Shown: piece by piece, positions 56,955 through 64,000 of the stretch
Layout of the letters: each line of letters opens with the position of its first letter
Position numbering within the stretch: position 1 is the first letter of the stretch
Assembly (NCBI GenBank): GCA_001664005.1
Contig: CP016093.1
Location: 2,363,001 to 2,427,000, forward strand
Length of the DNA: 64,000 nucleotides
Source of the DNA: Rhizobiales bacterium NRL2
Lineage (GTDB): Bacteria > Pseudomonadota > Alphaproteobacteria > Minwuiales > Minwuiaceae
Reading direction: 5' to 3'
Position numbers and translations under genes: made by a program
The notes under the pieces: generated by a model
Told to the model about the DNA's origin: nothing
What the model saw: only the letters and a program-made list of their open reading frames with translations
The model's database searches: none

Positions 56955-58109
56955 ATGCGCGGTCAGGGACCCCTCAGCGGGATCAAGGTAGTCGAACTGG
57001 CGGGCATCGGCCCGGGGCCGATGTGCGGCATGCTGTTCGGCGATCTGGGCGCCGACGTCATCCGCATCGACCGCCAGGAGGCGGCGGATCTCGGCATCGA
57101 CCGGGGCAGCAACAAATGGGATCTGCTCAACCGTTCCAAGCGGTCGGTGGCGGCGAATCTCAAGACTTCGGATGGCGTGGAGACGGTGCTCAGCCTGGTC
57201 GAGAAGGCCGACATCCTGATCGAGGGCATGCGTCCGGGCGTCACCGAGCGTCTCGGCCTCGGGCCCGACGAATGCTGGGCGCGCAATCCACAGCTGGTCT
57301 ACGGCCGCGTCACCGGCTGGGGCCAGACCGGGCCGATCGCGCACGCTGCCGGACATGACATGAACTACATCGCGCTCACCGGTGCGCTGCACGCCATCGG
57401 GCGCAGCGACAGCGGGCCGGTGCCGCCGCTCAATCTGGTCGGCGATTTCGGCGGCGGCGCGCTCTACCTCGCCTTCGGCTGTCTCGCCGCGGTGATCGAC
57501 GCGAAGGAATCCGGCAAGGGCCAGGTGGTCGACGCGGCGATGATCGACGGCGCCTCCAACCTGATGACCGCGATCTACGGCATGAAGGCGGCCGGGCGCT
57601 GGAAGCAGGAGCGGGGCACCAACATCCTGGATACCGGCGCGCATTTCTACGACGTCTACGAGACGAAGGACGGCAAGTACGTCTCCATCGGCTCCATCGA
57701 GAAGAAGTTCTACGCCGAACTGCTCGAGAAGACCGGCATCGACCCCGCGGAAATGTCGGAGCAGATGAACCCGGATAGATGGCCCGAATATTCGGAGAAG
57801 CTCGGGAAGGTCATCAGGACGAAGACCCGCGACGAGTGGACCGAGATCATGGAAGGTTCCGACGTCTGCTACGCGCCGGTCCTGGACATGGACGAGGCGC
57901 CGGAGCATGCGCACAACAAGGCGCGCGAGACCTTCATCGACATCGACGGGGTGGTGCAGCCGAACGCCGCGCCGCGCTTCTCCCGTACGCCCAACGGCCG
58001 GCCGACCGTCGCGCCCGATCCGGGGCAGAATACCGACGAGGTGCTGACCGAGTGGGGCTTCACCCCCGATGAGATCGAACGGTTGAAGGCCTCCGGCGCG
58101 GTTCGCTGA
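56955..58109 (+). CDS. Alpha-methylacyl-CoA racemase-like CoA-transferase family protein
   Basis: The 384 residues are of the CaiB/BaiF fold but closest to AMACR/Mcr racemases, which invert the alpha-methyl centre of branched acyl-CoAs before beta-oxidation. The catalytic pair is seen as His134 in AGHDMNY and Asp164 in VGDFGGG, together with GWGQTGP. GGGGAGG precedes the ATG. A dehydrogenase gene starts one base after its stop, suggesting coupling. Confidence 0.9.
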   Translation: MRGQGPLSGIKVVELAGIGPGPMCGMLFGDLGADVIRIDRQEAADLGIDRGSNKWDLLNRSKRSVAANLKTSDGVETVLSLVEKADILIEGMRPGVTERLGLGPDECWARNPQLVYGRVTGWGQTGPIAHAAGHDMNYIALTGALHAIGRSDSGPVPPLNLVGDFGGGALYLAFGCLAAVIDAKESGKGQVVDAAMIDGASNLMTAIYGMKAAGRWKQERGTNILDTGAHFYDVYETKDGKYVSIGSIEKKFYAELLEKTGIDPAEMSEQMNPDRWPEYSEKLGKVIRTKTRDEWTEIMEGSDVCYAPVLDMDEAPEHAHNKARETFIDIDGVVQPNAAPRFSRTPNGRPTVAPDPGQNTDEVLTEWGFTPDEIERLKASGAVR

Positions 58110-58110
58110 G

Positions 58111-58869
58111 ATGGGCCGTCTCGACCGCAAGGTCGTCTGGATCACCGGCGCAGCCTCGGGCCTGGGCCGGGAATCCGCGTTGCGCTGCGCCGCCGAGGGC
58201 GCCCGCCTGATCGTCACCGATCTGGCGGCGCCGGAAGCCGTCGCCGCCGGGATCGCGGACGCGGGCGGGGAAGCCCTGGCGCTGGCGCAGGACGTCACCG
58301 TCGAAGGGCGCTGGGACGAGGTCGCCGACGAGGCGGAGAAGGCCTTCGGCGGCTTCGACGTGCTGGTCAACAATGCCGGCCTGGGTGAGAACCGGCCTCT
58401 GGCGGAGACCACGCTCACCCAGTGGCGGCGCGTGCAGTCGGTCAACCTCGATTCGGTCTTTCTCGGCACGCGGCTCGCCTTCCGGCGCATGCGGCCGGGC
58501 GGTTCGGTGATCAACATCTCGTCGATTCTCGGGCTGGTCGGCAATGCCGGTACCGCCGCCTACTGCGCATCGAAGGGCGGGGTCCGCCTGCTGAGCAAGT
58601 CCGCCGCGGTCGACGCGGCGCAGGCCGGGCTGACGATCCGGGTCAATTCGATCCATCCGGGTTACATCGAGACGCCCATGGTGGTGGATGCCGTCAACAA
58701 GCGTCCCGAACCCGATCAGGTCATGGCCTACATCGCCAGCCGGCATCCGGTCGGTCATCTGGGGGAGCCCGCCGACATCGCCCACGCCGTGGTCTACCTT
58801 GCCTCCGACGAGAGCCGGTTCGTCACCGGCGCCGAAATGGTCGTCGATGGCGGCTACACCGCCTGGTGA
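58111..58869 (+). CDS. Short-chain dehydrogenase/reductase
   Basis: The 252 residues show TGAASGLG near 12-19, NNAGLG, the catalytic Ser in NISSILG thirteen residues before Tyr, the YCASK site and the C-terminal FVTGAEMVVDGGY. An Asp (TDLAAP) after the second strand suggests NAD preference. It is likely translated with the racemase-like gene upstream and may oxidise a 3-hydroxyacyl or steroid-like alcohol; this is inference. Confidence 0.92.
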   Translation: MGRLDRKVVWITGAASGLGRESALRCAAEGARLIVTDLAAPEAVAAGIADAGGEALALAQDVTVEGRWDEVADEAEKAFGGFDVLVNNAGLGENRPLAETTLTQWRRVQSVNLDSVFLGTRLAFRRMRPGGSVINISSILGLVGNAGTAAYCASKGGVRLLSKSAAVDAAQAGLTIRVNSIHPGYIETPMVVDAVNKRPEPDQVMAYIASRHPVGHLGEPADIAHAVVYLASDESRFVTGAEMVVDGGYTAW

Positions 58870-58948: not shown

Positions 58949-61258
58949 TTGGGAGTGGGCGTCGGTATGGACAGCGTCGGCGCTTCGCAGAATATCGGCG
59001 ATAGTGCGCTTTCGGCCGTCGACGTGACGCCGCGGCGGCCGGCGGGAAGCCCGGGCGATTCGTCGTCCCTCGACCGCGATTCCCGCATCCGCGCGGCCAT
59101 GATCGCGGAACTGATCCGCGATTCGTCCCGGCTGCGGGTCAGTCCCTTCATTCTGGTCGCGATCCTCGGCACCGTCTTCGTCGACCGCGCGCTTTGGCCG
59201 ACCATCGTCCTGATCGTCGGCGCGGCCCTGTTCACGATTGCCGGCGACCGGCTGCGCAAGGCGTTCGATGCGGCAGGCACTGCGCCGGAGAACGCCGAGG
59301 CCTGGGGCCTGCGGTATGTCGCGCTTTCCGCTGTGGTGGGGGTGATCTGGGGTTCCTGCCTGGCGGGCTATTTCGACCCCGGTTCCTATCCGCATCAGGC
59401 GTTTCTGGCCCTGCTCACCTTCGGCTCGCTGTTTGCCGCCATCGTCCACAGGGCGCTCTATCCGCCGGCCTTCATCGCGCTGGCCGTGCCGACGGTGGCG
59501 CCGCTGCTGTTCATGCTCGCGCTGACGGGTGACGAACTCGGCGTCGCCACGGCTGCCATGGGTCTGCTGGGCTTCGCGGTGCTGCTGGGCTGGCTGCGCA
59601 TCCTCAACAAGCGGTTCAGGGAGTCCTTCTCGCTCCGGTTCCAGAACACGGACCTGATCGAACGGCTGGAGGCGGCGCACCGTTCGGCGGAGGCCGCCCG
59701 GCAGGCGGCGGAGGCCGGCGACCGCACCAAATCCGAATTCCTCGCCACCATCAGCCATGAACTCCGCACGCCGATGAACGGCATCATCGGCATGACCGGA
59801 TTGCTGCAGGGCACGAAGCTCGGCCCGCAACAGCGCTCCTACGCCGACATCATCAAGGAATCGGCGGATGCTCTGCTCAATCTGATCAACGACATCCTGG
59901 ACCTGACCAAGCTCGAATCGGGCCGGGTGGAACTGGACGACAGTCCCTTCGAACTGGCCCGGACCATCGAAGGGACCGTCGGCCTGATGGCGGAACGGGC
60001 GCAATCCAGCGGGCTCGAACTGGCCAGCTACATCGCCCCGGACGTGCCGGACATCCTGACCGCCGACGCCGGGCGGTTGCGCCAGGTGCTGCTCAACCTG
60101 CTCAGCAATGCGATCAAGTTCACCGAGGAGGGCTCGGTGACGCTGACGGCGACGCTGGCGCCGCAGTCGCGCGCCATGCTGCGTCTGGAAGTCACCGATA
60201 CCGGCATCGGCATTCCCGCCGACGTTCTGCCCCGCCTGTTCCGCCCGTTCAGCCAGGCGGGCGGCATTTCCAGGCGGTTCGGCGGCACGGGACTGGGGCT
60301 CGCGATCTCGCGCCGCCTGGTGGACGCCATGGGCGGCGAGATCTCGGTCGAAAGCGAGGATGGCGGCGGTTCGACCTTCCGCGTCGACCTGCCCATACGA
60401 TCCGGCAAGCAGGCGCAGGCGCCCGACTCCCTGGATGGCGTCGAGGTGATTCTGGTCGGTCCGTCCGGCGTGGTGCGCGACGTTACCGCCCGCTATGCCG
60501 AATGCTGGAACGCGACGGTGCGGGCAGCGGACGATCCGGCGGAGGGACTCCGCTGCCTGCGGGCCGCCGGCGGCGATCCGGTTGCGGTGATCGACTGGCG
60601 CGTGAGGGGCGGCGCGGGGGATCTGGCGCGGCGTGTGCGGGCGGATGCCGCCCCGAAGAACTGCCGGCTGGTCCTGACCGTGCCGGTGGGCGTTGTCGAG
60701 GCGGTGCCGGAGGATGAAGACGCCCTGTTCGATGCACGGCTGTTGCAGCCGGTGCGCCGCGCCCGATTCCACCGGGCGCTGGCGGGCGGGCCGGCCGAAG
60801 CGCCGGACGAGAGCGCCCGTCCGCGCCGGACCGTTGCCGCCCCGGGCGCGCGCCTGCGCGTTCTGGTCGTCGACGATGTCGCTGTGAACCAGAAGCTGGC
60901 GGCCTCGATCGTCGAGATTTCCGGCCATGAGGCCGTGGTCGCGGGCGGCGGACGCGAGGCGTTGCAGGCGCTGCGCACGCTGCCCTATGACCTCGTGCTG
61001 ATGGACGTCGAGATGCCGGAAATGGATGGACTGAGCGCGACCCGCGCCATACGGCAGATGCCCGGCACCGCCGGCGCCATTCCGATCATCGCGATGACGG
61101 CCCATCCGGGCGACGAATATGTCTCGCGCTGCATGGACGCAGGCATGAACCGTTATCTGGCCAAGCCGCTGGACGCCGCGGAACTGATTTCGATCCTGCA
61201 GGAGCATGCGGACCGCGCCGCGAGCCTGCCGCCGGGCGACACCGCCGAAGGAGACTGA
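58949..61258 (+). CDS. Hybrid sensor histidine kinase with C-terminal receiver
   Basis: The 769 residues begin with an N-terminal region of about six transmembrane helices (66-220), a short coiled coil (about 232-260), and a HisKA domain with phospho-acceptor His270 in ATISHELRTP. The HATPase domain (LLSNAIKF, DTGIGIP, GGTGLGLAIS) is followed by a degenerate receiver-like segment (about 493-610), then a true receiver with Asp686 (LMDVEMPEMDG) and the AKPLD lysine. TTG 58949 with AGGGGG six bases before is taken as start; ATG 58967 is an alternative. It precedes the giant coiled-coil gene by 4 bases. Confidence 0.88.
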   Translation: MGVGVGMDSVGASQNIGDSALSAVDVTPRRPAGSPGDSSSLDRDSRIRAAMIAELIRDSSRLRVSPFILVAILGTVFVDRALWPTIVLIVGAALFTIAGDRLRKAFDAAGTAPENAEAWGLRYVALSAVVGVIWGSCLAGYFDPGSYPHQAFLALLTFGSLFAAIVHRALYPPAFIALAVPTVAPLLFMLALTGDELGVATAAMGLLGFAVLLGWLRILNKRFRESFSLRFQNTDLIERLEAAHRSAEAARQAAEAGDRTKSEFLATISHELRTPMNGIIGMTGLLQGTKLGPQQRSYADIIKESADALLNLINDILDLTKLESGRVELDDSPFELARTIEGTVGLMAERAQSSGLELASYIAPDVPDILTADAGRLRQVLLNLLSNAIKFTEEGSVTLTATLAPQSRAMLRLEVTDTGIGIPADVLPRLFRPFSQAGGISRRFGGTGLGLAISRRLVDAMGGEISVESEDGGGSTFRVDLPIRSGKQAQAPDSLDGVEVILVGPSGVVRDVTARYAECWNATVRAADDPAEGLRCLRAAGGDPVAVIDWRVRGGAGDLARRVRADAAPKNCRLVLTVPVGVVEAVPEDEDALFDARLLQPVRRARFHRALAGGPAEAPDESARPRRTVAAPGARLRVLVVDDVAVNQKLAASIVEISGHEAVVAGGGREALQALRTLPYDLVLMDVEMPEMDGLSATRAIRQMPGTAGAIPIIAMTAHPGDEYVSRCMDAGMNRYLAKPLDAAELISILQEHADRAASLPPGDTAEGD

Positions 61259-61262
61259 ACCG

Positions 61263-64000
61263 ATGCTGCTGAAATGGTCGGGACGTTCGGAAGAGGAAGC
61301 GGTTCGCGCGGAGGCGGCGGACGAGGCTGCGGCCGCGGATATCGGCAGGGTCCGGCGCGTCACCGCCGTGGTCCTTGGCGGTGCGACCGTCGTCTGGGCG
61401 ATCCTGGTCTGGCGCTACATCGCCTGGTCGGTGGGCTTCGGCTCGCTCGGCCTGATGCTGCCGCACGAAGTGGCGCTGCTGGTGCTGGCGGCCTTCACGC
61501 CGCCGCTGTTCCTGTGGCTCGCCGGTTTCCTCTACTGGCGCAGCGTCGAGGCGGGCCGCAGCCGCGCCGCCCTTCTGGAAGTGCTGTCGGACATCAGCGG
61601 TCCGAACGCCGAGGCGGAGGCGAAACTGAACGCCGTGGCGCTCTCGCTGCGCCGACTGAGCCAGACCGTCGAGTCGGAACTGTCCAATGCGCTCGCCCGC
61701 GTGGAATCCCTGGACTCCCGCATCGGCGCGGGGGCAGAGGCGCTGTCGCGCAACGCCGCTGCCGCCGGCGGCCGGGCCGACGATGTCTCCGCGCTGCTGA
61801 GCGATGCTCTGGCGGAACAGAACCGGCTGCTGGCGGAGTTCGAGCGCGTCGGCGAAAGGGTGCGTGAACTGGGCCGGACCGAGAGCGGCAATCTGAGCGC
61901 GACTGTGGCACTGGCCGAACGGCGCACGGCGGAGATCGGCGCCGCCCTGGAATCCAAGGTGAAGGCGGCCGGGGAAACCGTTGAAATCGTGGCCAGAAGG
62001 GCGGAGCAGATCGGCCATTCCATCGATCAGCCGCTGGGGCGTCTGCGCGAAGAGAGCGACCAGACGGTGCGCCGTATTGCGGGCGCCACCCAGGATCTCA
62101 AGGCCAGGATCGAGGCGCTTTCCCAGGAGATGGCGCGGACGGCGGATCAGTCCGGAGCGGTCGGCAAGGGCGTCGACGACAGCCTGATTCGGGTGCGCAC
62201 CGCTGCCGGCGAGATCCGCACCCTGATCGGCGATCTGGATCAATCCACGCGGGAGCGGCTCGAGGAACTGGGCGAACTGGCATCGGGGGCCATTCGGGCG
62301 TCCGATCAGGCGGCAGGCCGCGTTGACCGGCGGATGGCCGAACTGGCGGGCTCTCTAGACAGCGTCAATGTCGGCGCCGGCGAAGCGGAGCAGGCGCTGC
62401 TGGCCGCGGTCGAACAGGCCCGGGCCGCGGTCGACCTGTTCCGCGAGCATGCCGAGGCGGCGGGCGAGACGGCGTCCGCGACTGCAGATCGCTCCGAAGG
62501 CGCCGCAGCGCATGTGACCGAAGCCGGCGCGGCCTTCGCCGCTGCGGGCCGGCAGATCGAAGCCGCCGACATCAGGCTGTCCACCGCGCAGGAGCGGATC
62601 GACGCCACCGTTTCGCATCTGTCGGGCGTCGTCGAGGAAGGCATGGCCGGCCTGGAGGAGCGCGTGCGGGAGGTCGCCAGCTTTGCCGAAGCGGCCACGG
62701 AGCGGTCGGCCGAACGGCTGGCCGCGGTCTCCGGCGGCCTCGCCGGGACCGCCCGCGACCTGGAGAAGCAGATCGCCTTCCTGGAGCAGCGCACCGAGGC
62801 CTCCGGGGAGAAGGGACGGGAGACGTCGGCGCGGCTGTCGGCGCGCGTAGCCGAACTGTCTGCCGCGCTGGAGGAAGTCGGGCTGGAAGCGGCGCGCAGC
62901 GATGCCGGTCTGCGGGACCTGGCGGAACGCGGCCAGGACGCCGTCCGCAGCCTGGGCGAGGCGCTCGACGAGGTTGCCCGCGGCGCCGAAGGCAGCGAGG
63001 AACGCGCCCGGCAGTCCGTGGAGTCGATCGAAGGTGCGGCGCTGTCCTTGTTGAGCGCCGGCGACCGTGTCGACGAGCGTCTGGCGCAACTGGGTGACGT
63101 CGTGACCCTGCGCACCGGCGAACTGGAAGACATCGCGGCGCGGATTGCCGCGGCGGCGCTGGCCGCGGAACAGGGGGCGGCCGAACGCCTGGAACAGGTC
63201 GCCGACCGGGTGGAGCATGCGACGTCGGCGGCGGGCGGATCCTTCGCCAGTCTGTCGGATGATCTGTCGGCCTTCATGTCCGACCTTCAGAGCCGGACGG
63301 GAGCCATGCGGGCGACGGTGGACGAGGCCACGGGCGCATCCGACCGGGCCTCGGCGCGGCTGTCGGAATCGGTCGCCGAACTGGCCCTTCTGCTCAAGGA
63401 TATCGAGCAGGCCGTGGGCGGGGCGGGCGAGAACATGTCGACGCTGGATGGTCAGGTGCGGGATCTGGCCGCCGCGATCCGCCACAGCATCGAGGAGAAC
63501 CTGGAAGTCCTGGAGGGACGCAGCCGGGCGGTGACCGCGGAACTGACCGCGCGCTCGGGGGACCTTGAGGAAGCTTCGGGCCGTCTGGAGGAGCGCGCTG
63601 CGCTCTCGGCGGAACGGCTGGTTGCGGTCGAGGGGCGGCTCGGCGCGCAGGCGCGGGAGACGGAAGACGCCTTCGGCGTGTTCGTGGATCTCTGGCGCGA
63701 CCGCACCGAGGGACTGGAAGGGATGGCCGGCCGACTCCGCGCCTTGGCCGAGGGCCTGGACGGGGAGACAGCAGCCAGACTGGAAGGCGTCGTCGGCGGA
63801 CTCCAGCGGGCAGTGGACGAAACCCGGAGCGCTATCGGCAGCCTGGAGACGGAGAAAACGGGCCTGCAGAAGATCAGCTCGGAGCTGGGCGAGAATCTGA
63901 GCGGTGCCGCGGCCGAACTGGAATTGAAACTGTCGGCGGCGGCGGCCACGGCGGACGGCGCCGCCGGGCGGCTGGCTGAGCGGATCGGCGAACTGGAAGC
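61263..64000 (+). CDS. Giant coiled-coil membrane protein, TipN-like architecture (3' end outside window)
   Basis: The frame stays open from ATG 61263 to the window end, at least 912 residues. After a short acidic N-terminus come two transmembrane helices (about 33-57 and 70-93), then an uninterrupted Ala/Glu/Leu/Arg-rich heptad pattern with hardly any proline, i.e. a very long coiled coil. Two N-terminal TM helices plus a long coiled coil is the layout of the Caulobacter pole-organising protein TipN, but this is an analogy of architecture; apolipoprotein- or chemoreceptor-like repeats look similar. It is likely co-transcribed with the hybrid kinase 4 bases upstream. Confidence 0.8.
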   Translation, partial: MLLKWSGRSEEEAVRAEAADEAAAADIGRVRRVTAVVLGGATVVWAILVWRYIAWSVGFGSLGLMLPHEVALLVLAAFTPPLFLWLAGFLYWRSVEAGRSRAALLEVLSDISGPNAEAEAKLNAVALSLRRLSQTVESELSNALARVESLDSRIGAGAEALSRNAAAAGGRADDVSALLSDALAEQNRLLAEFERVGERVRELGRTESGNLSATVALAERRTAEIGAALESKVKAAGETVEIVARRAEQIGHSIDQPLGRLREESDQTVRRIAGATQDLKARIEALSQEMARTADQSGAVGKGVDDSLIRVRTAAGEIRTLIGDLDQSTRERLEELGELASGAIRASDQAAGRVDRRMAELAGSLDSVNVGAGEAEQALLAAVEQARAAVDLFREHAEAAGETASATADRSEGAAAHVTEAGAAFAAAGRQIEAADIRLSTAQERIDATVSHLSGVVEEGMAGLEERVREVASFAEAATERSAERLAAVSGGLAGTARDLEKQIAFLEQRTEASGEKGRETSARLSARVAELSAALEEVGLEAARSDAGLRDLAERGQDAVRSLGEALDEVARGAEGSEERARQSVESIEGAALSLLSAGDRVDERLAQLGDVVTLRTGELEDIAARIAAAALAAEQGAAERLEQVADRVEHATSAAGGSFASLSDDLSAFMSDLQSRTGAMRATVDEATGASDRASARLSESVAELALLLKDIEQAVGGAGENMSTLDGQVRDLAAAIRHSIEENLEVLEGRSRAVTAELTARSGDLEEASGRLEERAALSAERLVAVEGRLGAQARETEDAFGVFVDLWRDRTEGLEGMAGRLRALAEGLDGETAARLEGVVGGLQRAVDETRSAIGSLETEKTGLQKISSELGENLSGAAAELELKLSAAAATADGAAGRLAERIGELE

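Follow-up and report, generated by a model that had tools for sequence, protein, structure and literature searches.

The window, by which we mean the whole stretch of 64,000 nucleotides analysed here from the genome of Rhizobiales bacterium NRL2, closes with a hybrid histidine kinase gene and the first part of a gene for a giant coiled-coil protein, referred to below as the scaffold (Table 1). The genome is a single 4.70-Mb contig and the scaffold frame was followed past the window end. Retrieval of the full gene, proposed in a preliminary description of this DNA, gave window-equivalent positions 61263-66104 (L003:9263-14104), encoding 1613 residues and including a C-terminal domain that lies outside the window. 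The same description had placed a protein of at least 912 residues with two transmembrane (TM) helices four bases after a multi-TM hybrid kinase, and this is borne out, with the kinase stop at 61258 and the scaffold ATG at 61263. The ribosome-binding site GAAGGAG stands ahead of this ATG; initiation at an alternative ATG in frame at 61206 would lengthen the protein by 19 residues. The aminotransferase gene starts one base past the scaffold stop codon. On the opposite strand, L003:15792-17582 encodes a 596-residue protein with stretches that by eye resemble Sel1-type and ankyrin repeats; it lies downstream of an MgtC-like gene.

Table 1. Genes and features at the kinase-scaffold locus (window positions unless a locus is given).
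Feature	Position	Strand	Remarks
CaiB-type CoA-transferase gene	56955..58109	+	Also upstream of scaffold in kinase-free sister lineages
Short-chain dehydrogenase (SDR) gene	58111..58869	+	Between CaiB and kinase
Hybrid histidine kinase	58949..61258	+	769 aa; profile domains and TM prediction
Scaffold gene, part within window	61263..64000	+	N-terminal 912 codons
Conserved N-terminal two-TM module	61383..61655	+	HMM match to residues 41-131
Scaffold coiled coil	61683..64000, on to about 65702 equivalent	+	Residues 141-1480
Class I/II aminotransferase gene	L003:14106-15266 (window-equivalent 66106-67266)		Kept in congeners

Six TM helices are predicted in the kinase, followed by HisKA, HATPase_c and receiver domains. 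The phospho-acceptor histidine, in the motif ISHELRTP, and Asp686 of the receiver are both intact, and with these domains and catalytic residues the protein is a hybrid histidine kinase. A degenerate receiver-like stretch occupies about residues 495-610, while the six-TM sensor region has no library match. The order HisKA-HATPase-degenerate receiver-receiver is shared with BarA-type hybrid kinases, as is the Hpt domain seen in congeners, but the window kinase scores 386 bits against 890, far under the BarA equivalog cut-off. Neither the window kinase nor that of a close relative (G004), both ending at 769 residues, has an Hpt domain; a separate Hpt protein would therefore be needed for their phosphorelay. 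Two divergent congeners have kinases with an Hpt domain at the C terminus (L078:7426-10047 and L079:7510-10170).

The two TM helices of the scaffold span residues 32-50 and 57-75, with none further on. The coiled coil that follows was expected from the preliminary description to be nearly proline-free, and it contains two prolines in 1340 residues. Hydrophobic residues recur along it at spacings of +3/+4, +7, +11 and +14. The spacing of +7 gives z = +9.4 relative to 1000 shuffles, so that the coiled coil is not an artefact of composition; this local spacing exceeded that of the shuffles, whereas Fourier power at coiled-coil periods over the whole sequence did not. The protein ends in a 118-residue helical C-terminal domain (CTD). 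When the window protein is compared with those of the two divergent congeners both ends are 52-55% identical, whereas the middle of the coil drops to 23-33% identity over long stretches. As judged from these identities, the ends are conserved and the spacer between them varies freely.

Both ends recur widely. The CTD was detected in 91 of 240 genomes of the class Alphaproteobacteria with a single-sequence query and in 96 of 240 with a profile, usually as one copy per genome. Our class locus set comprised 61 loci (60 neighbourhoods and the window's own), and in all 61 ORFs, which range from 508 to 2416 residues, the CTD lies at the extreme C terminus. The N-terminal two-TM module, which spans about 91 positions, was matched in 57 of these 61 loci; the window's own match is by construction, its sequence having served as a seed for the HMM. 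Further matches came from 73 of 80 Rhizobiales proteins and from four short homologues. Short proteins of 328-364 residues, with both modules and almost no coil, are encoded at L257:2130-3158, L258:2344-3438, L259:2131-3177 and L260:2233-3219, and one genome (G029) has the long form of the scaffold besides a short two-module protein. Scans of full-length proteins matched no Pfam or NCBIfam family to the CTD, and a sequence search of the PDB gave nothing convincing. An AlphaFold model of the CTD from Rhizobiales sequences is all helical with a moderate mean pLDDT of 76. Foldseek returned no match to this model at E <= 0.001, and VIA-align gave Z values of up to 6.3, inside the chance range for helical bundles.

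We use the two terminal modules to define a TipN/GPR/RgsE-type superfamily, and the scaffold displays its features: a CTD at the extreme C terminus, a two-TM module and a long coil between them. In a tree of both modules the window protein groups with other lineages in a branch of their own, apart from the Rhizobiales clade, with moderate path support (0.53 to 1.0); a TipN-like protein is placed with poor support (0.5-0.85). The window scaffold is a previously unreported protein whose branch is separate from that of true GPR.

GPR and RgsE form a ring at the growth pole and are required for rod shape. GPR (Atu1348 of Agrobacterium tumefaciens), to which the classification PF01442 is applied, has 2115 residues with two N-terminal TM helices, apolipoprotein-like helices and a Pro-rich region at 1890-2000, and loss of its C-terminal 221 residues abolishes function (PMC8262873). 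RgsE (SMc00190 of Sinorhizobium meliloti) has 2089 residues; distant homologues are known from Rhodospirillales and Emcibacterales and may differ in role (PMC7327166). A scan of named genomes gave 80 Rhizobiales loci (Bosea, Microvirga, Brucella, Ancylobacter, Rhodoplanes and others). Complete genes mostly encode proteins of about 1400-2300 residues with N-terminal TM helices and the same CTD, about 38% identical to that of the window and usually preceded by a Pro-rich stretch. The published anatomy of GPR and RgsE matches these relatives, and the kind of protein is thus already known. The window scaffold shares with GPR and RgsE the two N-terminal TM helices, the giant helical body and the CTD of GPR-type proteins, a likeness drawn through the named Rhizobiales proteins and the published description of GPR. 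It differs in size (1613 residues against about 2100) and lacks the Pro-rich linker, the stretch between residues 1174 and 1604 being proline-free. Against PF01442 the window part reaches 34.3 bits and the full protein 18.7, both below the cut-off of 90, which the Brucella tritici protein passes with 125 bits.

The neighbours also differ. The window has the order CaiB-SDR-kinase-scaffold-aminotransferase, whereas Mla/MCE genes accompany GPR/RgsE. Within 6 kb of the Rhizobiales GPR-type gene MlaF and MlaD occur at 68 of 80 loci, MlaE at 67 and PqiC at 59. In the named Rhizobiales (L177-L256) an MlaE-MlaF-MlaD-PqiC-like lipid transport block faces the GPR-type gene in convergent orientation, an arrangement also seen at L086, L100, L115, L116, L118, L119, L121, L125, L129, L131 and L133; we found no report of this adjacency in the open-access literature. 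At L118 and at 40 of the 80 Rhizobiales loci the GPR-type gene has an Hpt-domain gene (PF01627) no more than 6 kb away; at the loci inspected, this gene lies upstream on the other strand.

TipN marks the new pole in Caulobacter. The protein of C. crescentus has 882 residues (PMC13170164), and the likeness of GPR to TipN has already been described (PMC8546619). Our comparison goes through an 860-residue TipN-like protein of one genome in the class sample (G071). This genome gave the best class-sample match to the DivJ profile (443 bits), the score on which its DivJ-bearing status rests; a DivJ profile search in family f5 singled out no Caulobacteraceae. The search of G071 covered about 0.57 of 2.5 Mb, and there the 860-residue protein was the top match for both the CTD (8.8e-6) and the N-terminal module (2.5e-4), although the matches are weak at 20.5 and 18.8 bits. 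It has the modules in the right order and a Pro-rich linker ahead of the CTD. The window scaffold thus has in common with TipN the layout, and with the TipN-like protein both terminal modules; it is twice as long, resembles the TipN-like protein weakly and at the profile level only, and is without the Pro-rich N-terminal and linker regions of that protein. The G071 match supports a link between TipN and the superfamily, short of proof. The resemblance to TipN proposed in the preliminary description thereby gains probable homology through two modules, but GPR/RgsE is the clearer relative.

The two modules common to the window, GPR/RgsE-type and TipN-like proteins place all three in one superfamily, and we consider it probable that the scaffold is an alphaproteobacterial member related to GPR/RgsE-type proteins and, more weakly, to TipN, acting as a pole marker or builder. 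Library matches to SMC, apolipoprotein and similar families, all of them below curated cut-offs, might instead point to a coiled-coil membrane protein of unrelated origin (SMC-like, ZorA-like or apolipoprotein-like), similar to TipN in layout only. We judge this very improbable, since the scaffold has in common with GPR-type proteins two modules outside the coil, one at each end. We give almost no credence to a PodJ-type assignment. PodJ is likewise a polar scaffold with coiled coils and a membrane anchor, but its coiled coils lie in a cytoplasmic N-terminal part, with a TM segment and a periplasmic C terminus following (PMC10127582), and the window scaffold, with its TM helices ahead of the coil, reverses that order.

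The preliminary description had also suggested that linkage to a sensor kinase makes the pair a polarity or envelope-stress module, and had proposed that conservation of the pair be examined. The kinase and scaffold genes adjoin in six genomes of the genus (the window genome and G001-G005); in a seventh (G006) they lie on different contigs. Outside the genus a kinase was directly upstream of the scaffold at none of 57 class loci, some of them truncated, and at none of the 80 Rhizobiales loci, these counts being drawn from ORF calls and phmmer matches and not from curated annotation. Conservation therefore holds within the genus and is absent from all loci examined elsewhere, which leaves the case for the module weak; no result of the analysis points to envelope stress. 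We found no report of kinase-scaffold adjacency in the open-access literature. At L087, L091, L092 and L095 a CaiB gene, with or without SDR, lies just before or near the scaffold gene with no kinase between, and at L087 the SDR gene is immediately upstream of it. Since CaiB or SDR abuts the scaffold in these sister lineages, the kinase is most simply explained by insertion in the ancestor of the genus, and it looks like a genus-level insertion. A PhoB-like response-regulator gene adjoining the scaffold gene at L134 was set aside as unrelated.

What such an insertion means for function can be read in two ways. On the first, the two proteins would be a functional signalling pair, the scaffold concentrating or regulating the kinase at the pole, as PodJ does with PleC, and the phosphorelay output tracking polar state. 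The four-base spacing, retention of the pair in the genus despite divergence of the scaffold coil, down to 23-33% identity over long stretches, the intact histidine and aspartate, and the Hpt-domain genes near half of the Rhizobiales GPR-type genes (40/80) are consistent with this. Against it, the pairing is confined to the genus, proteins elsewhere that are related to the kinase in its sensor region are not encoded next to a scaffold gene, and conservation extends to the CaiB, SDR and aminotransferase neighbours, so that general synteny accounts for the pairing. We regard a signalling pair as unlikely. The other reading, that the kinase entered the operon by chance and has only transcription in common with the scaffold gene, seems to us the better founded and rather likely: the kinase-free CaiB and CaiB-SDR arrangements agree with it, and kinase genes are abundant, with 77-89 kinase-query matches per congener, although retention of the pair in all congeners examined and its near-abutting spacing count the other way. 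A genus-level unit in which a GPR/TipN-type polar scaffold places or gates a BarA-like phosphorelay kinase for polarity signalling is accordingly a tentative proposal, to which we attach a low probability.

With the scaffold taken as a GPR/RgsE- and TipN-type protein, a polar scaffold function is likely, although it is a prediction. Reasoning from GPR, RgsE and TipN, the two N-terminal helices would anchor the protein in the inner membrane, the cytoplasmic coil would oligomerize and set the reach of the assembly, and the C-terminal helical domain would dock partners. By homology the scaffold most likely marks or builds the growing or new pole. The hybrid kinase gene, a genus-specific addition, is probably transcribed together with the scaffold gene, and the kinase may signal from the site of the scaffold. 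PopZ is present in the window genome.

What is new here is the scaffold member and its narrow pairing with a kinase, found in one genus; this kind of scaffold was known already. The pairing carries little weight unless an interaction with the scaffold is shown but, if true, the scaffold-kinase unit would connect polar growth with two-component signalling in a new way. The two modules tie TipN-like, GPR-like and uncharacterized alphaproteobacterial proteins into one testable family, in which the ends are conserved and the coil ranges from almost none to about 2000 residues, and they would provide a sequence handle for telling lineages in which such a scaffold serves pole marking from those in which it serves polar growth.
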